From Cyanobium sp. ATX 6A2 (GTDB lineage Bacteria > Cyanobacteriota > Cyanobacteriia > PCC-6307 > Cyanobiaceae): a stretch of 64,000 nt of DNA. The position numbers and the translations under genes were made by a program. The notes under the pieces were generated by a model. It did not search any database. It worked only from the letters and a program-made list of their open reading frames with translations, and had not been told where the DNA came from. Each line of letters begins with the position of its first letter. Position 1 is the stretch's first letter. The stretch lies in the NCBI RefSeq assembly GCF_024346355.1, contig NZ_JAGQCU010000002.1:62001-126000 (forward strand), given 5' to 3'. Positions 7,061-57,410 of this stretch are shown one piece after another.

Positions 7061-7735
7061 TTGGCTCCCACATCCGCGTCCTCCGGCCGCATCGCCCTCC
7101 TGCTCCGCTGGCTGGGGCTCACTCTGGTGGTGCTGATGGGGCTTCAGCTCACAGCCCTGCTGGTGAACTGGAACTGGGGCCTCGAACCCTTCCGCCAGGT
7201 GTTCCTCGACCGGCTGGTGGGCGAGGGCCCCATGGCCCTGGTGGGTCTGCTGCTGATGCTGACCGCCCAGCGGCTGGATGCAGCGGCCGGCCGGACTCCC
7301 CTGCGCTGGCTGGTGGGGGTGCTCGCCGTGGTGTTGGCGATCGCCATGGTGGTGGCCGTGCCGTTGTCGGTGAGCAGCGAGGCCGCCCTGGCCCAGGAGG
7401 TCCAGCAGCAGGATGCCGCGATTGCCCAGCAGGCGATGCAGCTGGAGATGCAGAAGCAGCAGGTGGAGGATCCCGGTTTCGTCGACCAGCTGATCGCCGA
7501 GGCCGAAAAGGAGGGCCGCATCCCGCCCGAGGCCAGCGAGGAGGAGAAGAAACAGCGGGCCCGTGAGTTCATCGACAGTCAGATCAGGCCGCAGCTTGAG
7601 CAGGCGGAGCAGCAGCTCGCCCAGGCCCGCTTCGGTCGCAACCTGGCGGTGCAGCAGCGCCGCTTCGGGGGTACCGGCCGCGCCGTTGTCCTGGCCATCG
7701 CCTTTGTGCTCGTGGCGGTGGTGGCCCTGGTCTGA
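7061..7735 (+). CDS. HpsJ-like membrane protein
   Basis: Integral membrane protein of about 224 residues. Hydrophobic helices lie at the N terminus (LTLVVLMGLQLTALLV), in the middle (MALVGLLLMLTA and WLVGVLAVVLAIAMVVAV) and at the extreme C terminus (AVVLAIAFVLVAVVALV). Between the last two is a polar, Gln/Glu-rich segment of about 100 residues likely to be coiled coil. This layout resembles picocyanobacterial proteins annotated as HpsJ family; the function here is unknown. The TTG at 7061 is my best start since no ATG or GTG lies in a better place, and an upstream GTG at 7001 would overlap queG. Divergent from queG with about 40 bases between starts. Confidence 0.7.
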   Translation: MAPTSASSGRIALLLRWLGLTLVVLMGLQLTALLVNWNWGLEPFRQVFLDRLVGEGPMALVGLLLMLTAQRLDAAAGRTPLRWLVGVLAVVLAIAMVVAVPLSVSSEAALAQEVQQQDAAIAQQAMQLEMQKQQVEDPGFVDQLIAEAEKEGRIPPEASEEEKKQRAREFIDSQIRPQLEQAEQQLAQARFGRNLAVQQRRFGGTGRAVVLAIAFVLVAVVALV

Positions 7736-7804
7736 TGGGCACCGTGGGGGGAACGGCTGGCTAGGTTGACGGACTGATCTGATGGCCAGAACGCCGGGTT
7801 TGCC

Positions 7805-8533: not shown

Positions 8534-9183
8534 TGTCCAGCCGCAGTCTTTCCCGTGAACTGGCCCTGCTGATGCTGGGCCAGACCAACGACCGTGGCGA
8601 GACGAGCGCCCCACGGCACCGCAGTGACCCCGAGCCGGCCCTGGAGGGGCTGCTGCAACAGGCCCTGGCCAGCCTCAGCCAGCACGTGCGCGATGCCCTG
8701 GACAGCTCTGCCGCCGATCTGCAGACCGCCCAGCAGGAGCTGCTGGACAGTGAATTGCAGGAGCAGGGTGTCCAGCAGCTGCCGCGGGTGCGCCAGCACC
8801 TCCAGCAGGGTCTGGCGGCTGCCGAACAGGCGCTCAATCGCCTCTCCGCCAGCCTGGAGCTGCCGCGTCTGCTGCTGCTTGCCGACCAGGAGGAGGTGCG
8901 GCGCGGAGCCGTGGAGCGTGCGCGGGCGGTGCTGCGCGACCGGGAGGACATCGACCGCCGCCTCGATGCGGTGATGGAGGGCTGGCGCCTGGGCCGGCTG
9001 CCACGCATCGATCGCGACATCCTGCGCCTGGCGGTGGTGGACCTGGCGGAGTTCGCCACCCCCGCCGCCGTGGCCTGCAGCGAGGCCGTGGAACTCGCCA
9101 ACCGCTACAGCGATGAGCAGGGCCGGCGCATGATCAACGGCGTGCTGCGTCGTTACACCACGGCTGTACGGAGTGGGGCCTGA
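8533..9183 (+). CDS. nusB: Transcription antitermination factor NusB
   Basis: NusB binds boxA RNA with NusE (S10) in antitermination of rRNA operons. The protein has 216 residues, longer than the roughly 140 of E. coli NusB, because of a helical insertion of about 60 residues after SRELALLMLGQTND that is common in cyanobacterial versions. The conserved C-terminal helical bundle is clear: LPRIDRDILRLAVVDLAEF followed by EAVELANRYSDEQGRRMING. Its start overlaps the DUF502 stop and its stop overlaps the ftsY ATG, so the three genes form a translationally coupled string. Confidence 0.93.
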   Translation: MSSRSLSRELALLMLGQTNDRGETSAPRHRSDPEPALEGLLQQALASLSQHVRDALDSSAADLQTAQQELLDSELQEQGVQQLPRVRQHLQQGLAAAEQALNRLSASLELPRLLLLADQEEVRRGAVERARAVLRDREDIDRRLDAVMEGWRLGRLPRIDRDILRLAVVDLAEFATPAAVACSEAVELANRYSDEQGRRMINGVLRRYTTAVRSGA

Positions 9184-13709: not shown

Positions 13710-14261
13710 GTGAGCATCTTCGTCGGCAATCTGCCCTTCCGCGCTGAGCAGGAGGATGTGGTGGAGCTGTTTTCCCCCCATGGGGAGGTGGTCAACTGCT
13801 CCCTCCCCCTTGAGCGCGACACCGGTCGCAAGCGCGGCTTCGCCTTCGTTGAGATGGCCGATCCCGAGATGGAAAGCCGGGCCGTGGAGGCCCTCCAGGG
13901 CGCCGAACTGATGGGCCGCCCGCTGCGCATCAACAAGGCCGAACCCCGTGGCAGCGCCCCGCGCCGTGCTGGCGGTGCTGGCGGCGGTGGCTATGGCGGC
14001 GCCGGCGGTGGTGGTGGCTACGGCGGTGGTGGCGGCTATGGCGGTGGCGGAGGAGGCGGCGCCGCGCCCGTGGCCGCTGATGGCTCCAGGGGTTCCGGGG
14101 CCCGCGGCTGGGAAGACCGCAGCTACGGCGGAGGATCCCCTGAGAGCGGTTTTGAGGCCGGGCGTACGCGTCGCCGCCGCAGCGGCAGTGCCGGTGCCGG
14201 TGGCGGTTTTGACGGCGGCTTCCAGGACGGCGACGGCGGTTACCCCGGCGCCGAGGACTGA
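13710..14261 (+). CDS. Glycine-rich RRM RNA-binding protein
   Basis: Small cyanobacterial RNA-binding protein (Rbp type) of 183 residues. The first 80 or so form one RNA recognition motif, with RNP2 SIFVGNLPF at the start and RNP1 KRGFAFVEM near residue 50. A long Gly/Tyr/Arg-rich tail follows, with GGGYGG repeats between about residues 87 and 115. Family members bind RNA and some are cold-regulated; in this strain that is inference. The GTG at 13710 puts the RRM at the N terminus as in homologues, while longer upstream frames run into argH. The end overlaps the convergent dus gene by 22 bases. Confidence 0.92.
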   Translation: MSIFVGNLPFRAEQEDVVELFSPHGEVVNCSLPLERDTGRKRGFAFVEMADPEMESRAVEALQGAELMGRPLRINKAEPRGSAPRRAGGAGGGGYGGAGGGGGYGGGGGYGGGGGGGAAPVAADGSRGSGARGWEDRSYGGGSPESGFEAGRTRRRRSGSAGAGGGFDGGFQDGDGGYPGAED

Positions 14262-15316
14262 GCCTCCTCCAGCTGCCGGGCGGCCCGCTCCAGCACCTCG
14301 GCTCCGGCCTGGCGCTCCCCGGCGGCCAGGCTGAGCTGGTGCCGCCAGCTTCGGGCCCCCGGAACGCCTTCCACCAGCTTCACCAGGTGGCGGGCGAGGG
14401 GCCAAAGCCGCTCGCCCTGGCCGCACCAACGCTCGGCGTAGGGCACCAGCCCCCGCAGCACCGCCGCGGCCCTGGCCAGGTGGGGTCTGCCGGCATACGC
14501 ACTGCCGGCGCCATGGATCGCCTCATCCACGCCGATCCAGCGCAGCGGATGGTTGTAGGCCGCGCGCCCCACCATCGCCCCATCCACGTGACGCAGCTGC
14601 TGCAGGCAGTCGTCCAGGGTCTGCAATCCGCCGTTGATCTCGATGATGAGATCCGGCCGCTCGGCCTTGATCCTGTGCACCCAGTCGTGGCGCAGGGGCG
14701 GGATGGTGCGGTTCTGCTTCGGGTCGAGACCCTGCAGCCAGGCCTTGCGGGCATGCACGCTGAAGCGCCGCGCCCCGGCGGCCGCCACGGTGTCCACGAA
14801 AGCCAGCAGCTCCGGGAAGGAGTCGCGCGTGTCGATGCCGATGCGGTGCTTCACCGTCACCGGCAGCGGGCCGGCGACCGCCATGGCCTCCACGCAGCGC
14901 GCCACCCGCTCCGGGTCGGCCATCAGGCAGGCCCCGAAGCGGCCCTGCTGCACCTTCTCGCTCGGGCAGCCCACGTTGAGGTTGATCTCGTCGTAGTCCC
15001 AGTCGGCAGCCAGCTGGGCGGCTTCGGCCAGCAGCGCCGGCTCGTCGCCGCCCACCTGCAGCGCCAGCGGCTTCTCGCAGGGGTCGAAGCCGATCAGCCG
15101 CTCCAGCCGTCCGTCCCGTCTGCCCGGCCGCTCCGCTCCGGCCTCCCGCCGGGCATGGTGCAGGGCCCGGGCCACCACCATTTCGGTGTAGAGCAGGCTG
15201 TGGCGAGTGACCTGGCGCATCAGCACGCGGAAGTGCCGATCCGTGCAGTCCATCATCGGCGCCACACTGAAGCGGTAGCTGGCTCCCCGCTGGCCTGGAT
15301 CCACGTGCTGCTCCAT
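14240..15316 (-). CDS. dusA: tRNA-dihydrouridine synthase A
   Basis: FMN-dependent reduction of uridine to dihydrouridine in the tRNA D-loop. About 358 residues from the ATG at 15316. Diagnostic stretches are the flavin-barrel start RFSVAPMMDCTDRHFR, NLNVGCPSEKVQQGRFGACL with the catalytic cysteine in GCPS, VTVKHRIGID, and the SVHARKAWLQGLDPKQNR segment characteristic of the DusA branch. Upstream open frame to 15502 is probably not coding. It overlaps the RRM gene tail-to-tail and is divergent from the flavoprotein gene, with only 19 bases between starts, which must hold both initiation signals. Confidence 0.94.
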   Translation of the reverse strand: MEQHVDPGQRGASYRFSVAPMMDCTDRHFRVLMRQVTRHSLLYTEMVVARALHHARREAGAERPGRRDGRLERLIGFDPCEKPLALQVGGDEPALLAEAAQLAADWDYDEINLNVGCPSEKVQQGRFGACLMADPERVARCVEAMAVAGPLPVTVKHRIGIDTRDSFPELLAFVDTVAAAGARRFSVHARKAWLQGLDPKQNRTIPPLRHDWVHRIKAERPDLIIEINGGLQTLDDCLQQLRHVDGAMVGRAAYNHPLRWIGVDEAIHGAGSAYAGRPHLARAAAVLRGLVPYAERWCGQGERLWPLARHLVKLVEGVPGARSWRHQLSLAAGERQAGAEVLERAARQLEEAQSSAPG

Positions 15317-15335
15317 TCCCCCATGCTGCCCAGCC

Positions 15336-16598
15336 ATGCATCCTGAGCGGTTGCCGGTGGTGGTTGCCGGTGGTGGTCCGGCCGGGTTCATGGCCGCGAT
15401 CGTCGCTGCCGAGGCCGGTGTGCAAGGCGTGCATCTGCTGGAGGCCACCCCCGAGCCCCTGGCCAAGGTGCGCATCAGCGGCGGCGGCCGCTGCAACGTC
15501 ACGCACGCCTGCTGGGATCCCCGCGAGCTGGTGGCGCACTACCCCCGGGGCAGCAGGGCGCTGCGCGGTCCCTTTTCCCGGTTCGCGGCGGGGGATGCCC
15601 TGGCCTGGTTTCAGGATCACGGCCTGGAGCTGGTGGAGGAGCCCGACGGCCGCCTGTTTCCCCGCTCCAACCGCTCCAGCTCGGTGGTGGACACCCTGCG
15701 GCGCGCCGCCGCCAGGGCCGGGGTGACGCTGCACACCGGCCTGGCCCTGCAGGCGGTGGCACCTGTTGCGGAGGGCTTCGCGCTGGAGCTGCGGGGGGAG
15801 CCCCAGCCGCTCACGGCAGGACAGCTGGTGCTGGCCACCGGCAGCCATCCCAGTGGTCGCCGCCTGGCGGCGGCCCTTGGCCACAGCCTGGTGCCGCCGG
15901 TGCCCTCCCTGTTCACCCTGGCCCTGGCCGGCGAGCCCCTGCTGGCCCTGGCCGGTGTGGCGATGGATCCGGTGGGCCTGATTCTGGAGCTGCCCGATGG
16001 CGGCAGCCAGCGGCAGCGCGGGCCGGTGCTGATCACCCACTGGGGCCTCAGCGGGCCGGCCACCCTGCGGCTCACGGCCTTCGCCGCCCGCCAGCTGCAC
16101 ACCAGCCGCTACCGGGCCCGGCTGCGGGTTGACTGGAGCGGTGGCCGCTCCCAGGCGGATCTGGAGCAGCTGGTCCAGCAGGCCCGCTCCTCCCAGGCCC
16201 GCCGCCAGCTGGCCAGTGCCCGGCCCTGGCCGGAGCTGAGTCGCCGCCTCTGGCAGCACCTGCTCACCAGGAGCGGCGTGGAGCCCGAGCGTCGCTGGGC
16301 CGATCTCACCCGGGAGCAGCAGCGCCATCTGATCAGCGCCCTGCGGAATTCCGTCTATGCGGTGAGCGGCCGGGGACCCTTCGGCGAGGAGTTCGTCACC
16401 GCCGGCGGCGTTCCCCTCGCGGAGGTGAATCTGGCCACGATGGCGAGCCGGCTGCAACCCGGGCTTTCCCTCGTGGGCGAGCTGCTGGATGTGGATGGCA
16501 TCACTGGCGGCTTCAACTTCCAGCACTGCTGGACCTCCGGCTGGATCGCCGGCATGGCCCTGGCGGACCAGCTCAGCGGATCTGGTCGAAGATGTTGA
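15336..16598 (+). CDS. BaiN/HI0933-family FAD-dependent oxidoreductase
   Basis: Two-dinucleotide-binding flavoprotein of 420 residues in the BaiN/HI0933 (also annotated aminoacetone oxidase) family. The N terminus has the FAD-binding VVAGGGPAGFMAA, then KVRISGGGRCNVTHA, a family hallmark. The C-terminal part has EFVTAGGVPLAEVN and GLSLVGELLDVDGITGGFN followed by WTSGWIAG, also diagnostic. The physiological substrate is unknown. Its 3' end overlaps the convergent pilC by 26 bases. Confidence 0.9.
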   Translation: MHPERLPVVVAGGGPAGFMAAIVAAEAGVQGVHLLEATPEPLAKVRISGGGRCNVTHACWDPRELVAHYPRGSRALRGPFSRFAAGDALAWFQDHGLELVEEPDGRLFPRSNRSSSVVDTLRRAAARAGVTLHTGLALQAVAPVAEGFALELRGEPQPLTAGQLVLATGSHPSGRRLAAALGHSLVPPVPSLFTLALAGEPLLALAGVAMDPVGLILELPDGGSQRQRGPVLITHWGLSGPATLRLTAFAARQLHTSRYRARLRVDWSGGRSQADLEQLVQQARSSQARRQLASARPWPELSRRLWQHLLTRSGVEPERRWADLTREQQRHLISALRNSVYAVSGRGPFGEEFVTAGGVPLAEVNLATMASRLQPGLSLVGELLDVDGITGGFNFQHCWTSGWIAGMALADQLSGSGRRC

Positions 16599-17832
16599 AT
16601 ATGGGCAGATACATGGCCACAAGAATCACACCCACGATTCCCCCCACAACGATGATCATCAGAGGTTCCAGCAGGGAGGTGAGGGCCTTGGTGGCATTTT
16701 CCACTTCATCTTCGTAGAAATCGGCGACCTTGGACAACATCGTGTCCATCTCACCGGTTTCCTCGCCGATCGAGAGCATGCTCAGAGCCAGATCGGGAAA
16801 GGCCTTCGTACGCCCCAGGGCCACGCTCAGGGGAATCCCCTGCATCACATCCTCGCGGCTGTTGGCAATGGTGTCGGCAATGATCGAGTTGCCGGTGATC
16901 TCGCGCACCACATCGAGGGAGAGCAGGATCGGCACCCCGGCCCGGGTCAGAGAACTGAAGGTGCGGCAGAAGCGCGCCGTGGCGGTTTTCTGGATGAGGT
17001 CGCCGAACAGCGGCAGTTTCAGCATCAGGGCGTCGATGCGCCGCCGCCCGTAATGGGTTTTGTAAAACCGCACCAGCACAAAGATGGCCAGTGCCAGACC
17101 GGCAGCCAGGAACAGGGCGGCACTCGAGCGCAGCAGGTTGCTGACGTTCACGAAGAACAGCGTGAATGCAGGCAGCTCGCCGCCCAGCTGGGCATAGAGG
17201 TCGGCGAAGATCGGGATGATGAACAGCATCATCCCCAGAAATACCGCGATCGCAATCACCAGAACGGCGATCGGGTAGGCCAATGCTCCCTTGATCTTGT
17301 TCTGCAATCTGGCGTTCTGCTCCAGCAGCTGGCCCAGCCTGCGCAGGGCTTCATCGAGCACACCGCCGGCTTCACCGGCCTCCACCATGGCGATCGTGAG
17401 GCGATCAAACACCTTCGGCCAAGCGCGCATCGCCGTGCCGAGGCTGTTGCCCTGGTTCAGCTCCAGGCTCACCGATTCCAGAGCTCGCTTGAACATCGGC
17501 AGCTTCTGCTGCGACGCCATCAGATCGATGCTGCGGATGATCGGCACCCCGGTGCTCACCAGGGCGCCCATCTTGCTGGCGAATACGGCCCTGTGCTTGA
17601 TGCCAGGCCGGCGTTCGAAGACGCTCTTCAGACCCGAGAACCGCAGCTTCTGATTCAGTTCCCGCTGGGCGCGCAGGCTGCTGGCCGAGCTTTGCGGTTT
17701 GACCTTGATGTCGGTGACCCGGATGCCGCGCTGGCGCAGGCGGCGTTTGGCCTGCAGGGCATCACCGGCATCGACGTCGATGTCCTGGGTCTTGCCCCGG
17801 CTGTTGGTGTAACTGGCGGTGAAGGTGGGCAT
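16573..17832 (-). CDS. pilC: Type IV pilus inner-membrane platform protein
   Basis: Polytopic GspF/PilC platform that couples the PilB/PilT motors to the pilus. The protein has 419 residues with two GspF domains, each with ASKMGALVSTGVPI- or FSSLTRAGVPILLSLDVVRE-type cores, and three membrane spans (AYPIAVLVIAIAVFLGMMLF, AALFLAAGLALAIFVLV and IIVVGGIVGVILVAMYLPI). It ends with the typical MYLPIFNIFDQIR tail. It is third in the pilB-pilT-pilC operon, 34 bases after pilT. Type IV pili in this group serve DNA uptake, motility or attachment; which applies here cannot be read. Confidence 0.96.
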   Translation of the reverse strand: MPTFTASYTNSRGKTQDIDVDAGDALQAKRRLRQRGIRVTDIKVKPQSSASSLRAQRELNQKLRFSGLKSVFERRPGIKHRAVFASKMGALVSTGVPIIRSIDLMASQQKLPMFKRALESVSLELNQGNSLGTAMRAWPKVFDRLTIAMVEAGEAGGVLDEALRRLGQLLEQNARLQNKIKGALAYPIAVLVIAIAVFLGMMLFIIPIFADLYAQLGGELPAFTLFFVNVSNLLRSSAALFLAAGLALAIFVLVRFYKTHYGRRRIDALMLKLPLFGDLIQKTATARFCRTFSSLTRAGVPILLSLDVVREITGNSIIADTIANSREDVMQGIPLSVALGRTKAFPDLALSMLSIGEETGEMDTMLSKVADFYEDEVENATKALTSLLEPLMIIVVGGIVGVILVAMYLPIFNIFDQIR

Positions 17833-53417: not shown

Positions 53418-53519
53418 GGCTGGATGGTGAACCATGCCGGATATACCCGTGGCCACCGTGATCGGTTTGCGCCCTCCGCAGCTTGGCCGGGTGGAGCTGC
53501 CTTCCGCTGAACTGGGGCG

Positions 53520-54857
53520 ATGGCCAGCAAGCGCACCCTCAATGCCCACAACCTTGAAGCGCTCGGTGCCGCAGCCCTGGCCGAGCTGCTGCTGGAGGTG
53601 AGCAGCGGCAGTGCGGTGCTCCAGCGGCGGCTGCGGCTGGCCCTGGCAGCCGCTGAGGGTGCTGAGGGCGCGGCCCGGGAGGTGCGCAAGCGCCTGGCGG
53701 CGATTGCCCGCGCCACCACCTTCGTGGATTCGCGCAAACGCGCGGCGTTGCTGGCGGATCTGGAGGCCCAGCGCCGAGCGATCAGCACACCGATTGCCCA
53801 GAGCGATCCGGCCCTGGCCGTCCAGTTGCTGGTGCGTTTCCTGCTGCTGGCCGATGGGGTGATGGAGCGCTGCTCCGACACCACCGGCGTGGTGATCGGC
53901 GTGTTCCGCAGGGCGGCGGACGATCTGGAGCCGTTGGCCAGGGCCGCCCCCATCACGCCCCAGGCGCTGGCCGAGTCGCTGGCCGAACTGCTCAACGAGA
54001 ACGGATTCGGCCAGTTCGATCAGCTCATCGCCGGCCTCGCCCCGCTCCTGGGAGAGGACGGGCTGGACCACCTCGAGAACACCCTGCTCGAGCGCGGCGG
54101 CATCGATCGCGCCTTGAGGGGGCAGATCGCCGAGGCGCGGGGCGATGTGGATGCCTATCTGGCGCTGTTCGACGACCGCCAGCTGGGCTGGCCCGACACC
54201 GCCGCCGATGTGGCCCTGCGCCTGCTGCGGGCGGGCCGGGCCGAGCAGGCCCTCGCCGTGCTGGAGCGGGCCTCGCGAGCCGCGGCCAGCCTCGATGCCC
54301 CGGCCTGGGACGACGCCCACATCGCTGTGCTCGAGGCCCTCGGTCGCCGCGAGGAGGCCCAGCACCGTCGCTGGCAGTGCTTCTGCCGCACGCTCTCGAT
54401 CACCCAGCTGCGTGCCTACCTCCAGCGCCTCGACGACTTCGAGGATGTGGAGGCCGAAGCGAAGGCCCTGGCGGTGGCCGAGGCCCATCCCCAGCCGCTG
54501 CTGGCACTGCAATTCCTGGTGGCCTGGCCGGCCCTCTCCCGAGCTGCCCGCTACGTGATGGCGCATTGGCAGGCCTGGGATGGCGACGCCTTCGAGATCT
54601 ACGGCCCCGCCGCCGAGCGTCTCAGCGCCGACCACCCCCTGGCGGCCACCGTGCTGCTGCGGGCGATGGTGGTGTTCGCGCTGGTGATGGGCCGCGCCAA
54701 GCGCTTTCGCCACGCCGCCGAGCACCTGCGCGCCTGCGATCTGCTGGCCTCCCGCATCGACGACTGGCAGGGTGTGGAGCCCCACTCCAGCTTTGTGGGG
54801 CGGCTGCGGGAGGCCTACGCCACGAGCCGGAGCTTCTGGCGGCTGCTGGAGCGCTGA
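53520..54857 (+). CDS. DUF6880-type hypothetical protein
   Basis: A 445-residue largely helical protein. The N terminus TLNAHNLEALGAAALAELLL, the AREVRKRLAAIARATTFVDS block, and LLADGVMERCSDTTGVVIGV match a family I recall as DUF6880, mostly from proteobacteria; this hints at horizontal transfer. The middle resembles TPR-like repeats (ALRLLRAGRAEQALAVLERA). Function unknown. Divergent from the sigma factor gene, about 100 bases between starts. Confidence 0.78.
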   Translation: MASKRTLNAHNLEALGAAALAELLLEVSSGSAVLQRRLRLALAAAEGAEGAAREVRKRLAAIARATTFVDSRKRAALLADLEAQRRAISTPIAQSDPALAVQLLVRFLLLADGVMERCSDTTGVVIGVFRRAADDLEPLARAAPITPQALAESLAELLNENGFGQFDQLIAGLAPLLGEDGLDHLENTLLERGGIDRALRGQIAEARGDVDAYLALFDDRQLGWPDTAADVALRLLRAGRAEQALAVLERASRAAASLDAPAWDDAHIAVLEALGRREEAQHRRWQCFCRTLSITQLRAYLQRLDDFEDVEAEAKALAVAEAHPQPLLALQFLVAWPALSRAARYVMAHWQAWDGDAFEIYGPAAERLSADHPLAATVLLRAMVVFALVMGRAKRFRHAAEHLRACDLLASRIDDWQGVEPHSSFVGRLREAYATSRSFWRLLER

Positions 54858-54892
54858 TCAGGTGTGGTCGTGGCGGTGGCGGGGGGCTTCTG

Positions 54893-54951
54893 AGCTGGTC
54901 AGCCTGTCGGTAGACAGCACTGCGCTCCCGCTTGCGCCCCGCCACGGCCAA
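54893..54951 (-). pseudogene. RelE toxin C-terminal remnant
   Basis: On the minus strand this reads LAVAGRKRERSAVYRQADQL, nearly the same as the end of the RelE-type toxin at 56316 (VVAVGKRERNAVYRQADQR). At DNA level the block gacagcaNtgcgctcccgcttgc is shared. Nothing upstream resembles the rest of RelE, so only the tail survives. Confidence 0.6.
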
Positions 54952-55061: not shown

Positions 55062-55301
55062 GCGATCCGCCGCTGAGGCAACAGCCTGGCAGTGAGGCTC
55101 CCCGCCGATTGCCTGCGCCAGGCCGGACTGCAGGAAGGCGACCAGATCGAGATCGTTGTTGGCCCCGATGGCCGGCTGAGTCTGGAGCCTTTGCACAAGC
55201 TGGATCGCTCAGCTCTGGCCGCTGACCTTCGCCGGCTGCAGACCTCCATGCCCCTCACTCCCTCGGTGATCGAGGACTGCCGCACCAGTGAGCGCTGGTG
55301 A
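55062..55301 (+). pseudogene. MazE/AbrB-type antitoxin interrupted at its conserved Trp
   Basis: One frame reads AIRR-stop-GNSLAVRLPADCLRQAG, then LQEGDQIEIVVGPDGRLSLE. In MazE/AbrB swapped-hairpin antitoxins this is IRRWGNSLAVRLP, so the Trp codon TGG is TGA here (55074-55076). No start codon in frame remains upstream. Restart at GTG 55092 would give 69 residues lacking the first beta strand needed for DNA binding, though the toxin-binding tail (55193-55301) would survive. The VapC-type toxin gene begins 14 bases later. Confidence 0.75.
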
Positions 55302-55314
55302 CGCTGACCCAGCG

Positions 55315-55653
55315 ATGATCTATCTCGACACCAGCGTGGTGGTCGCGCTGCTGACTCCAGAAGAGCGCAGCCCGCAGGCCCTCGACTGGTTTGAGCAGTG
55401 CCGCGAAACCCTGATCAGCAGCGACTGGCTGATCACCGAGACCCACAGCGCCCTGGGCATCAAGCAACGTCACCATGGCCTCAGCCCGCAGGCACGCCAG
55501 GCGGCGGGGGAGCAGTTCGAGCGACTGCTGCAGGCCGGTGATGCCCTGCATCTGGTGGTGGCGCTCCACAGCCGCTGCACCCAGCTGGCCAGCTTCGATG
55601 GGCGGATGCAGCAAGCCGCCGCTGCACTGGGCCTGAGTCCGACACTGACATAA
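55315..55653 (+). CDS. VapC-type PIN-domain toxin, possibly internally shortened
   Basis: A 112-residue PIN ribonuclease domain. Acidic residues remain: [13 protein letters not shown] (first Asp), [16 protein letters not shown] (Glu), [11 protein letters not shown] (Asp), [12 protein letters not shown] (last Asp). Standard members have about 135-140 residues; the segment between FERLL and QAGDALHL seems to lack about 25-30 residues that normally form a helix and strand. It would therefore be an in-frame deletion and may be inactive. ATG 55315 gives the canonical N terminus; GTG at 55288 is alternative. Confidence 0.72.
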
Positions 55654-55675: not shown

Positions 55676-55918
55676 ATGACATCACCGTCACTCCCCAATG
55701 AACTCACCACCCAGCAGGCCGCTGATCTGCTGACTGTGTCGCGGCCGTTCCTGATTGAGCAGCTGGAGCGAGGGGAGATCCCCTTTCGCAAGGTCGGCAC
55801 CCACCAGCGCATTCGCCTGGCCGACCTGATGGCCTACAGGCACGCCATCGATCATCAGCGTGTCGTGGCCCTCGATGAATTGGCCGCCCAGGCTCAGGAG
55901 CTCGGCATGGGTTGCTGA
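55676..55918 (+). CDS. Orphan excisionase-like HTH antitoxin
   Basis: An 80-residue protein with a MerR/excisionase-type winged [23 protein letters not shown], then [20 protein letters not shown]. The C-terminal helix ([19 protein letters not shown]) resembles the toxin-binding tail of antitoxins that pair with PIN toxins. No matching toxin lies downstream; instead there is a TOTE-type remnant on the other strand. It could be a surviving antitoxin (anti-addiction) or simply a relic. Confidence 0.7.
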
Positions 55919-56303
55919 TCTGAAATCAGCGAATACCCCATCGCCCGGTAGCCCCGCAGCCGCCGCTCCCACATGCGTTGCGGCACAGGCCAACCGCGGC
56001 TTTTCGCAGATGCCTGGCCGCCACTCATTGGCGCAGGCCGGCGCATAGCCCGATCGCCCGCTGCTGTTGGTGCCAGCGCAGGGCATGGACATCGTCACGG
56101 CCGCGGAAGAGACGCCGGAAGAGCACCACCTTCTCCTGCGTGGAAACGGGACCCTTGACTGGGGCCTGGAGTGAAATTGGCGCAGGTTCAGATGGGGCAG
56201 GTGCGCCGGAGCGCCAGGCGATTCCTTGGGCCTCCAGCAGGGCAATCAGTCGGGCGTCCTCCTGACGTAGCTCATCCAGCTCAGAGGGCTTGGAGTCGGC
56301 CAT
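55893..56303 (-). pseudogene. Frameshifted, internally deleted remnant of a TOTE-type primase/helicase
   Basis: Three pieces in three frames. From ATG 56303: DELRQEDARLIALLEAQGIA and EKVVLFRRLFRGRDDVHALR, matching the start of TOTE conflict-system archaeo-eukaryotic primase proteins. After a shift near 56062-56073: SGRSGYAPACANEWRPGICE followed by KPR (to about 55994), the next conserved block with its Cys/Trp. Then a third frame from about 55977 reads RMWERRLRGYRAMGYSLIS, resembling the end of the helicase part. The primase catalytic core and nearly all of the helicase are gone. Confidence 0.72.
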
Positions 56304-56315
56304 GGGGCATGGGCT

Positions 56316-56597
56316 TCAGCGCTGATCGGCCTGGCGATAGACAGCATTGCGCTCCCGCTTGCCCACTGCCACAACAAGCACCAGCACATCGCGATCCCGC
56401 ACTTCGTAGACGAGGCGAAATCCGGCGGCGCGGAGTTTGATCTTGTAGCGATGACTGGATCCCCGCAGCTTGCTGGCGGGAATCCGCGGTTCGATCAGCC
56501 GTTCGGCCAACTTCTTCTTGAACTGCTCTCGAATCCCTGCGGTCAAGGTCCGCCATTCCCGCAGGGCCTCGGGATGAAAGGCCAGCTCATAGGGCAT
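56316..56597 (-). CDS. RelE/ParE-family toxin
   Basis: A 93-residue RelE-superfamily mRNA interferase or gyrase poison. YELAFHPEALREWRTLTAGI, ASKLRGSSHRYKIKLRAAGF, RLVYEVRDRDVLVLVVAVGK and the basic tail RERNAVYRQADQR follow the RelE fold with Arg/Lys active-site residues. The ATG lies 11 bases inside the upstream antitoxin gene, so the pair is translationally coupled. No damage visible; appears to be the only intact toxin-antitoxin pair of this island. Confidence 0.87.
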   Translation of the reverse strand: MPYELAFHPEALREWRTLTAGIREQFKKKLAERLIEPRIPASKLRGSSHRYKIKLRAAGFRLVYEVRDRDVLVLVVAVGKRERNAVYRQADQR

Positions 56598-56841
56598 CGA
56601 GGCTGACCCGCAGCGGCTCCTGCCCATCCGCCAGCCGGGCATCGGCAATGCGGCCCAGCTCCAGGTCTTCCACGAGATCCATCAACTCCTCGTAGGCCCG
56701 GGCCGGAACGCAGTAGAAGGCCGGCTCGTTGCGGTTGAGCACCGCGACCGCCATCCCTTCACCGGCCGCCACGGTGGCCATGGGGTTCTTCTTGTGTTCC
56801 GAGATGCTTACGGCGGTCTCGGTCAGCACGCGGTGCACCAT
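56587..56841 (-). CDS. Phd/YefM-family antitoxin
   Basis: An 84-residue antitoxin. RVLTETAVSISEHKKNPMAT, GEGMAVAVLNRNEPAFYCVP and ARAYEELMDLVEDLELGRIA follow the Phd/YefM DNA-binding fold and acidic toxin-binding tail (LADGQEPLRVSLDAL). Upstream of and overlapping the RelE-type toxin. Such antitoxins repress their own promoter, which would lie just above 56841; no operator repeat stands out there. Confidence 0.88.
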   Translation of the reverse strand: MVHRVLTETAVSISEHKKNPMATVAAGEGMAVAVLNRNEPAFYCVPARAYEELMDLVEDLELGRIADARLADGQEPLRVSLDAL

Positions 56842-57338
56842 CAGCGGGTCAGACCAGGTCAGGACCGTATCTTAGGTCGCCTGTCAGGTCTCGGGTTCGG
56901 TCGATCCTGTGCGGCGCTCCGGACCGATCAAGGACGGTCAACACGGAAATCGCTGGGCAGTGGAGCTGATGATCTCCGTCGATCCTGCTGATCGCCCAAC
57001 GAACATCCTGGTATCGCCGCAGTGCCTGGGGATCGATCGGTCGTTGGTTGAATCGCCGCGTGGACAAGTTTGCTTGGGTGGTGATGTTGGGCCGCACTCA
57101 GCCCCACTCTCTGCCAACCCTCAACCCGAGCGACCTGCTGAGGCATCGAGACTCAGCTGACTCCACACGGGTGGAGTCAGCTCAGACAATGAAACGACCA
57201 GCAGGGAGAAGCACTGTGAGAAGGTTGAACCAATCGCTGGCACTGCCTTTCACCCCCAGTCAACCTCTGGCATGCCGCCAACGAGTGCCAAGCAAGGCGA
57301 TCGCTTGAGCGACAACAGTTTTCAGGTCTGGACTGAAA
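56842..57338. other. Non-coding stretch of about 500 bases between the Phd-RelE pair and tRNA-Gly
   Basis: No recognised gene. Short frames on both strands (for example minus 56849-57097) match nothing I know. A strong hairpin lies at 57155-57182 and another at 57319-57339 right at the tRNA 3' end. Less GC-rich than the core genes. It is probably the eroded edge of the island. Confidence 0.5.
57155..57182. repeat. Perfect 12-bp inverted repeat with 4-base loop
   Basis: AGCTGACTCCAC (57155-57166) and GTGGAGTCAGCT (57171-57182) pair perfectly around ACGG. No gene end lies close on either strand, so it is not clearly a terminator. It may be an operator, a structured RNA or a mobile-element end. 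Confidence 0.6.
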
Positions 57339-57339
57339 A
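57319..57339 (-). terminator. Hairpin directly downstream of tRNA-Gly
   Basis: TTTTCAG (57319-57325) and CTGAAAA (57333-57339) form a seven-bp stem with a seven-base loop starting at the tRNA discriminator position. It may serve as a 3' end or processing signal; a run of U after the stem is lacking. Confidence 0.4.
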
Positions 57340-57410
57340 GCGGGTGACCGGGCTCGAACCGGCGACGTTCAGCTTGGGAAGCTGACATTCTACCACTGAA
57401 TTACACCCGC
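57339..57410 (-). tRNA. tRNA-Gly (CCC anticodon)
   Basis: Read on the minus strand, GCGGGTG (acceptor) pairs with CACCCGC. The anticodon stem TCAGC/GCTGA encloses loop TTCCCAA, giving anticodon CCC for GGG codons. The TψC arm GCCGGTTCGAGCCCGGT is intact, discriminator U fits bacterial tRNA-Gly, and no CCA is encoded. Total 72 bases. The 3' end faces the toxin-antitoxin island, the usual position for integration sites. Confidence 0.93.

Follow-up and report, generated by a model that had tools for sequence, protein, structure and literature searches.

Cis-mobilizable elements of the CIME type are flanked by attachment (att) sites, carry no integrase and accrete in tandem at one tRNA gene. The other systems close to the locus described here are summarised from excerpts of the papers cited. 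PICMI phage satellites are small chromosomal elements at a specific site that contain a primase and depend on a helper phage, and excision of known satellites requires satellite-encoded integrases (PMC10803314). The tycheposons of Prochlorococcus are cargo elements bordered by tRNA genes that occur in picocyanobacteria and elsewhere together with a tyrosine recombinase; they range from 4 to 200 kb and use seven tRNAs, which may or may not include tRNA-Gly (PMC10872708). A third CAPP_A type consists of a Prim-Pol catalytic domain fused to a helicase, and non-CRISPR CAPP relatives with a helicase are typical of mobile elements (PMC8211822); in the TOTE conflict systems the name stands for TPR, OB, TBP and Effector (PMC12458937). 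This report concerns a window of 64,000 nucleotides from Cyanobium sp. ATX 6A2 (contig NZ_JAGQCU010000002.1, positions 62,001 to 126,000; "the window" refers below to this whole stretch) and the relic of a primase-helicase gene within it, which is probably the dead cargo gene of one copy of an integrase-less hitchhiking cassette at tRNA-Gly.

When these systems are compared with the cassette, the att flanks, the absent integrase and the tandem accretion are shared with CIMEs, but the proposed partner of the cassette is prophage-like and not conjugative. With the PICMI satellites it has in common the small size, the specific site and the primase, and the dependence on a helper phage is a proposed parallel; however, PICMIs have int and alpA, while no integrase was found in the cassettes at tRNA-Gly(CCC). 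The tycheposons are likewise bordered by tRNA genes but are larger than the ~3.5 kb of the integrase-less cassette, whose target is tRNA-Gly. The intact gene is a fusion of Prim-Pol and helicase as in the CAPP_A "CAPP-helicase" type, though paired with Phd/ParE and flanked by tRNA-Gly att repeats; no CRISPR-cas gene was recognised between the att copies of locus L041, cas families not having been searched in the wider loci. With the TOTE systems it shares the AEP domain, represented by the Pfam family AEP-TOTE (PF22548; 330 bits in the intact relative against a cut-off of 27), but the cassette is tRNA-targeted and resides in genomes without TBP.

The primase-helicase relic and the cassettes at tRNA-Gly

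The first-pass annotation of this DNA had placed three blocks of a scrambled TOTE-type gene with a deleted middle at 55893-56303, close to a tRNA gene. All three blocks were recovered there: the relic extends over 55924-56303 on the minus strand and is composed of two PF22548 blocks and a C-terminal tail. The loss of the middle and the nearby tRNA gene, a tRNA-Gly(CCC) 1.0 kb from the relic, were likewise confirmed, but the gene is not scrambled, since the blocks are collinear on one strand and in the right order. The profile search proposed by that annotation, run on the open reading frames (ORFs) of the window, matched PF22548 in ORF 56025-56303(-) (E 1.3e-5, 25.4 bits) and ORF 55688-56245(-) (E 3.3e-5, 24.0 bits), each fragment alone being slightly under the curated cut-off, with no match in a third ORF (55894-56046); a search of the window's own genome recovered PF22548 at the relic locus only. 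In tblastn with the protein of locus L015 (genome G148; L and G numbers designate loci and genomes throughout) the N-terminal block showed 91% amino acid identity over 82 aa (E 1e-52, 154 bits) and the tail 95.8% over 24 aa (E 2.5e-9), and 50 shuffled copies of the same protein reached at best 30.0 bits in the window, ruling out a chance match.

The closest intact gene, used as reference, encodes 789 aa in locus L033 of genome G148, the locus named Cyanobium sp. Cruz-8D1. Relative to it the relic has a net 2-bp deletion near 56072 in the nucleotide alignment and has lost ~1,973 bp according to blastn, with a 4-bp microhomology at the junction (Table 1). The surviving sequence stops short of the DFD, SRSxxGAH, GKT and DECH catalytic residues, and without any catalytic motif the gene is therefore dead; sequence comparison identifies it as a PF22548 primase-helicase pseudogene with its middle deleted. 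The dN/dS values against L033 were 0.33 for the adjoining Phd gene, 0.26 for ParE and 0.35 for the N-terminal block of the relic, with few changes throughout, so that they do not set the uninterrupted genes apart from the relic.

In the family, PF22548 was found in 36 of 400 genomes including that of the window, 35 of them over the cut-off and some as fragments, and a whole primase domain (PF22548 positions 1 to 226 or more) in 25 of 400. Twenty long loci could be studied, representing 19 of the 35 other matching genomes; 11 more were covered by short loci (G180 and G221 also by longer ones) and five with fragments were left out (G048, G077, G143, G249 and G351). In 18 of the 20 long loci the 5 kb upstream contain, on the same strand, a tRNA-Gly gene or a 45/46-bp copy of the 3' part of one; ten have such a copy downstream, and both Phd and ParE were matched in 15. 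Among 55 named loci (of 80, the excluded ones being mostly short or ending near the gene) tRNA-Gly lies 0.76-1.75 kb upstream in six of seven from cyanobacteria; within 4 kb of the 48 non-cyanobacterial genes, some with flanks cut by contig ends, any tRNA gene was seen in four cases and tRNA-Gly in none. Both tRNA-Gly isoacceptors, CCC and TCC, serve as target.

The minimal unit measures 3.3-3.5 kb and consists of a 46-bp att, Phd, ParE, the primase-helicase and a second att (L040, L041, L042, L044 and L047); in L041 these three are the only genes recognisable between the att copies when ORFs of at least 70 aa are considered. What the first-pass annotation had missed is that the gene is cargo of such a tRNA-targeted mobile cassette with att repeats of its own. 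The relic is flanked by the same tRNA-Gly(CCC) and aminotransferase genes as the loci of congener G192 and of genus g35, and the intact copy that the annotation suggested looking for at this site is present in G192 (L040). In G124 (L044, genus g35) 3,474 bp separate the att copies beside the aminotransferase gene. When eight congener loci were compared with it, six had the aminotransferase gene, a complete tRNA-Gly(CCC) and the right flank joined, and two were occupied. The distal att of L044 is the allele of two empty-site congeners (L220 and L226) and the tRNA-proximal att is the allele of both att copies in L041, as fits an element that brings its att by insertion. Direct att repeats, a duplicated target and empty sites in relatives, which mark a tRNA-integrative element, were all found, and compared across genomes the loci show that the cassette inserts site-specifically at the 3' end of the tRNA gene and that att is duplicated there. 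Congeners G155 and G180 hold differently broken remains at the site.

The cassette DNA of the window is 95.0% identical over 1,008 bp to that of G148, which belongs to another genus, and 82% identical to that of congener G192, whereas the aminotransferase gene of the window is 85% identical to that of G148 and 88% to that of G192. This opposite order is, on sequence comparison, a signal of transfer. In all six pairs of four loci the similarity of the cassette gene moreover exceeds that of the aminotransferase gene by 4.3 to 9.1 points. In L033, L038, L041 and L043 sites of the right-end type described below stand before the upstream att copies, and therefore the elements seem to be stacked in tandem.

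Some loci carry other DNA within comparable ends. The elements L270, L264 and L265 measure 8.6-10.6 kb, share att and the 9-mers (see below) with the cassettes and keep only the last ~40-45 primase-helicase codons near the right end, an apparent exchange of cargo within fixed ends; the cargo of L270 includes oxidoreductase and GHMP-kinase genes. In L056 (G155) a 3.7-kb insert at 13937-17720, with genes for a CrtC-like lipocalin and an AraC-type regulator, is situated between an att copy and tRNA-Gly, and fragments of Phd, ParE and the primase-helicase lie beyond it. In L202 (G180:C52) tRNA-Arg(TCT) at 7711-7784 adjoins an integrase relative (76%), an HTH_17 gene and an N-terminal fragment of the primase-helicase, and is possibly a third target.

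End sites, integrases and a proposed mode of movement

Alignment of the cassette ends revealed a 9-mer, CTTCTCACA, and its 30 occurrences in 12 sequences of the CCC type, from the window and 11 loci, are all on one strand at -111, -82, -70 or +159 to +161 from the att core. None of nine loci of the TCC type or without tRNA contains it. A search for the 9-mer together with the att core at right-end spacing gave 26 occurrences in 20 of the 400 family genomes and none with the reversed control. The window has a single copy, at +160, within ACCTTCTCACA; no second match with one mismatch or none exists in the window, yet 39 of 100 shuffles also give a match, and the weight of the site comes from the spacing fixed in relatives.

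No integrase match to PF00589 was obtained in the 20 loci, the relevant integrases being missed because they score under that profile: PF00589 reached E 8e-4, and the full-length integrase of L260 had no Pfam match at E 0.001, while PHROGs recognised them. A divergent tyrosine recombinase, whole or broken, was found beside the TCC-type copies L034-L037, L045 and L052. No integrase of their own was found in the CCC cassettes, and among the CCC-type loci the TCC-type integrase is present only as pieces in L051. A search with the integrase family matched 386 of 400 genomes, too broad for any use in co-occurrence.

At tRNA-Gly(CCC), G102 (L259) and G035 (L260) carry elements that encode a full-length 420-aa integrase and have 9-mers at +151 and +163, and in G209 (L262) a 422-aa integrase with 9-mers at +151/+163 lies behind an att copy that has the right end of another element. 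L260 encodes KilA-N and Gp2.5-like proteins, two PHROGs that are matched in the G102 element as well. The next att found in G102 lies 48.7 kb away from that of this element, and the 46 ORFs scanned gave matches to portal, major head, Mu Gam-like, primase and integrase proteins and also to transposases, so that the element is read as prophage-like on the basis of its gene content.

These observations suggest a mechanism in which the 9-mers would be arm sites of the integrase of such phage-like elements, and this integrase would move the cassette in trans. The Phd/ParE pair may stabilise the cassette, and the primase-helicase may act against competing phages or elements, or replicate the excised cassette. 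In the window the primase-helicase was destroyed by the 2-bp and ~2-kb deletions and the distal att has been lost, the Phd and ParE genes being left uninterrupted. We infer both the mobilisation in trans and the defence. The wider proposal is more tentative, and we would give it somewhat less than an even chance: that the picocyanobacteria harbour a family of minimal hitchhikers, 3.5-kb integrase-less cassettes with an addiction module and a Prim-Pol/helicase, in which the att core and the arm sites used by prophage-like elements at tRNA-Gly(CCC) have been retained, so that insertion, tandem stacking and spread from genus to genus can take place in trans.

Several points weigh against this interpretation. 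Nothing was seen to move, neither excision nor transfer having been observed, and the distal att of the window copy was not found. The alignment from which the 9-mer was chosen was of these same ends, the name arm site comes from the spacing alone, and the spacing differs between the integrase elements (+151/+163) and the cassettes (~+160). L050 has no 9-mer, and L033, L038 and L043 have exact 9-mers only before the upstream att, as the right end of another element would. Two of the 20 long loci (L049 and L051) lack an upstream att and ten lack a downstream copy, and six of the 11 additional genomes, most of them with short flanks, showed tRNA-Gly upstream. The higher identity of the cassette gene could also be explained by slower evolution, and the CCC cassettes may simply have lost an integrase and be relics of an autonomous form, which is conceivable because their TCC-type relatives have integrases.

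The gene product and alternative explanations

The intact 789-aa relative contains an AEP-TOTE domain (61-289), a ResIII/DEAD SF2 helicase domain (434-576) and a weaker match to Helicase_C (646-749) under its cut-off, and the DFD, SRSxxGAH, GKT and DECH residues are invariant in 12 aligned proteins. The sequence of the primase half is closest to those of CRISPR-associated Prim-Pols (PADLOC PrimPol, E 3.6e-112; PDB 7nqd/7nqf, E ~3e-10); the latter entries, named "TPR_REGION domain-containing protein" in PDB, we take to be CAPP structures. According to PDB 6p4f (E 1.6e-15) and NCBIfam models the helicase half is nearest to XPB and RadD. In its architecture the protein corresponds to the non-CRISPR CAPP relatives that have a helicase. 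Homologues of ~60-65% identity are found in plasmids and chromosomes of many proteobacteria. Viral contigs contain 32 relatives, two near full length at ~63% and the others partial, nearly all covering the helicase region only; among 1,228 matches in phage records none covered 80% of the query, and the 15 listed are to the helicase half only.

A role in defence is inferred from the company of homologues elsewhere. Among 45 flanking proteins of non-cyanobacterial homologues, HsdR-type, McrBC, AbiEii, SIR2_2, AlbA, Fic and HipA domains appear once or twice each; these proteins, mostly the longer ones, were picked from 91 listed ORFs, with 25 of 29 families shown, and are no census. In L166 (5445-5990), in L167 (5445-5996) and in 11 of 48 non-cyanobacterial loci a gene for a 180-aa protein of no confident family is located just upstream of the primase-helicase, overlapping its start in some loci, and is a possible functional partner. 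On the defence reading the cassettes may protect the host, or the cassette itself, against the phages whose integrase they use.

The alternative that survives best concerns the role of the gene only and is compatible with the cassette: the primase-helicase could be a replication module that primes and unwinds the excised circle. We regard this as a real possibility without expecting it. In the excerpts cited, integrated elements, often residing in tRNA genes, are described as carriers of AEP primases of the PrimPol-PV1 supergroup (PMC5862659); mobile elements are named as the typical location of the non-CRISPR CAPP relatives, most of which have a helicase (PMC8211822); and a primase accompanies int and alpA in PICMI satellites (PMC10803314). 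This is opposed by the homologues that sit among restriction and toxin genes elsewhere, and by the 44 of 48 non-cyanobacterial loci without tRNA within 4 kb, some flanks being cut by contig ends.

It is unlikely that the CCC cassettes descend vertically from one integrase-bearing insertion, with the integrase lost and the empty sites left by later excisions. In favour of such a descent, a FastTree phylogeny built from 17 cyanobacterial proteins places most CCC copies in two groups, each with support 0.97, whose union among TCC copies, some of them integrase-linked, has a support of only 0.24; the CCC copy L050 groups with TCC copies, and L049, without tRNA, is most basal. However, the cassette of the window is nearer to another genus than to G192 while the aminotransferase gene is not, and the att alleles in L044 fit insertion.

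More improbable still is a plain decayed TOTE-type defence gene lying near the tRNA gene by accident. The match to the PF22548 family, the PADLOC PrimPol match and the restriction and abortive-infection type genes that adjoin some non-cyanobacterial homologues are in its favour. However, the tRNA-Gly linkage in 18 of 20 loci, the att duplication and the empty sites are against it, and therefore the proximity to the tRNA is no accident. Furthermore, TBP (PF00352) was found in none of 20 genomes, four archaeal control genomes being positive, and no TPR or OB partner gene was recognised between the att copies of L041, these two families not having been searched genome-wide. Of the TOTE label in the first-pass annotation the assignment to the PF22548 primase-helicase family thus holds and the assignment to a TOTE system fails.

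An assembly or sequencing artefact can hardly account for the relic, for although the 2-bp change alone could be a sequencing error, a 1.97-kb deletion with microhomology is no base-calling error and congeners G155 (L056) and G180 (L053) have otherwise broken copies at the same tRNA.

The island of the window and implications

Table 1. Relic, cassette and neighbouring features, with positions in the window
Feature	Positions	Strand	Remarks
Relic N-terminal block	56073..56303	-	~codons 1-77 of intact gene, frame 1; ends at net 2-bp deletion
Relic second block TNSSGRSGYAPACANEWRPGICEKPRLAC	55985..56071	-	frame 2; PF22548 positions 23-53, E 3.3e-5; tblastn
Relic C-terminal tail GWPVPQRMWERRLRGYRAMGYSLI	55924..55995	-	last 24 codons of intact gene; tblastn
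Deletion junction	55986..55989		4 bp common to both flanks; blastn vs L033
ParE/RelE-family toxin gene, 93 aa, uninterrupted	56316..56597	-	inside ORF 56316-56648
Phd/YefM-type antitoxin gene, 84 aa, uninterrupted	56587..56841	-	PF02604 E 1.5e-5, under curated cut-off
Arm-type-like site ACCTTCTCACA	57215..57225	-	+160 from att core
46-bp att core, 3' part of tRNA-Gly(CCC) gene	57338..57383	-	duplicated at far end of intact cassettes
tRNA-Gly(CCC), integration target	57339..57410	-	ARAGORN
HTH_17 protein gene, 80 aa	55676..55918	+	PF12728 E 6.5e-10; abuts relic 3' end
PIN-domain toxin-like gene	55288..55653	+	PF01850 E 1.4e-10
MazE-like antitoxin gene	55092..55301	+	PF04014 E 1.4e-6
Remnant of second ParE C-terminus	54884..54945	-	nucleotide matches to ParE 3' end in relatives
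DUF6880 gene in island	53520..54857	+	PF21810 E 3.4e-149

The ParE gene is conserved upstream of intact primase-helicase copies; its ORF of 110 aa matches PF05016 (E 2e-10), the 93-aa reading starting at an internal ATG. Phd is 98% identical in amino acid sequence to that of L033. The HTH_17 gene recurs in relatives (L035, L037, L045 and L050). It was considered as an excisionase and set aside, an antitoxin fitting better because the gene adjoins PIN_3 genes in L262, where it is just upstream on the same strand, and in L035. The PIN-domain gene also adjoins the cassette in L033 and is found in the islands of L043, L048 and L052. The ParE remnant next to the MazE/PIN pair may be what is left of a further cassette once present in this island. 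Synteny of the backbone with that of congener G155 breaks off at 53473, and a fragmented relative of the DUF6880 gene adjoins the cassette in the TCC-type L048, the locus of Synechococcus sp. WH 5701.

The genome of the window has a second decayed island (L200, G000:C1:443001-460000) at tRNA-Gly(TCC), 8683-8753, holding a broken tyrosine integrase (87% over 116 aa, with a stop inside) and an HTH_17 gene. This fragment is the best integrase match in the genome, the next among the matches listed being 45% identical. The window copy thus has its gene broken and no evident helper integrase in the genome, and with its distal att gone it is stuck.

Our literature searches found no published account of a Cyanobium tRNA-Gly genomic island or of a tRNA-Gly integrase or prophage in Synechococcus, a search for a TOTE primase conflict system gave no match, and among the papers listed for cis-mobilizable and related elements none is, by its title, about such cassettes. 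The cassette family is a variant of tRNA-targeted hitchhiking elements. In the excerpt available of a 2018 paper lysogeny is called rare in unicellular cyanobacteria, inducible prophages not having been found in Synechococcus or Prochlorococcus isolates as of that year (PMC6157547); the tRNA-Gly att common to the cassettes and the prophage-like element gives named sites at which to hunt for prophages. The relic, ordinary when taken alone, matters only as the dead end of the cassette cycle. This cycle is a possible reason why TOTE/CAPP-type primase-helicase genes come and go at picocyanobacterial tRNA genes, and a cassette with nothing more than DNA sites and a payload of three genes would show how far satellites can shrink.
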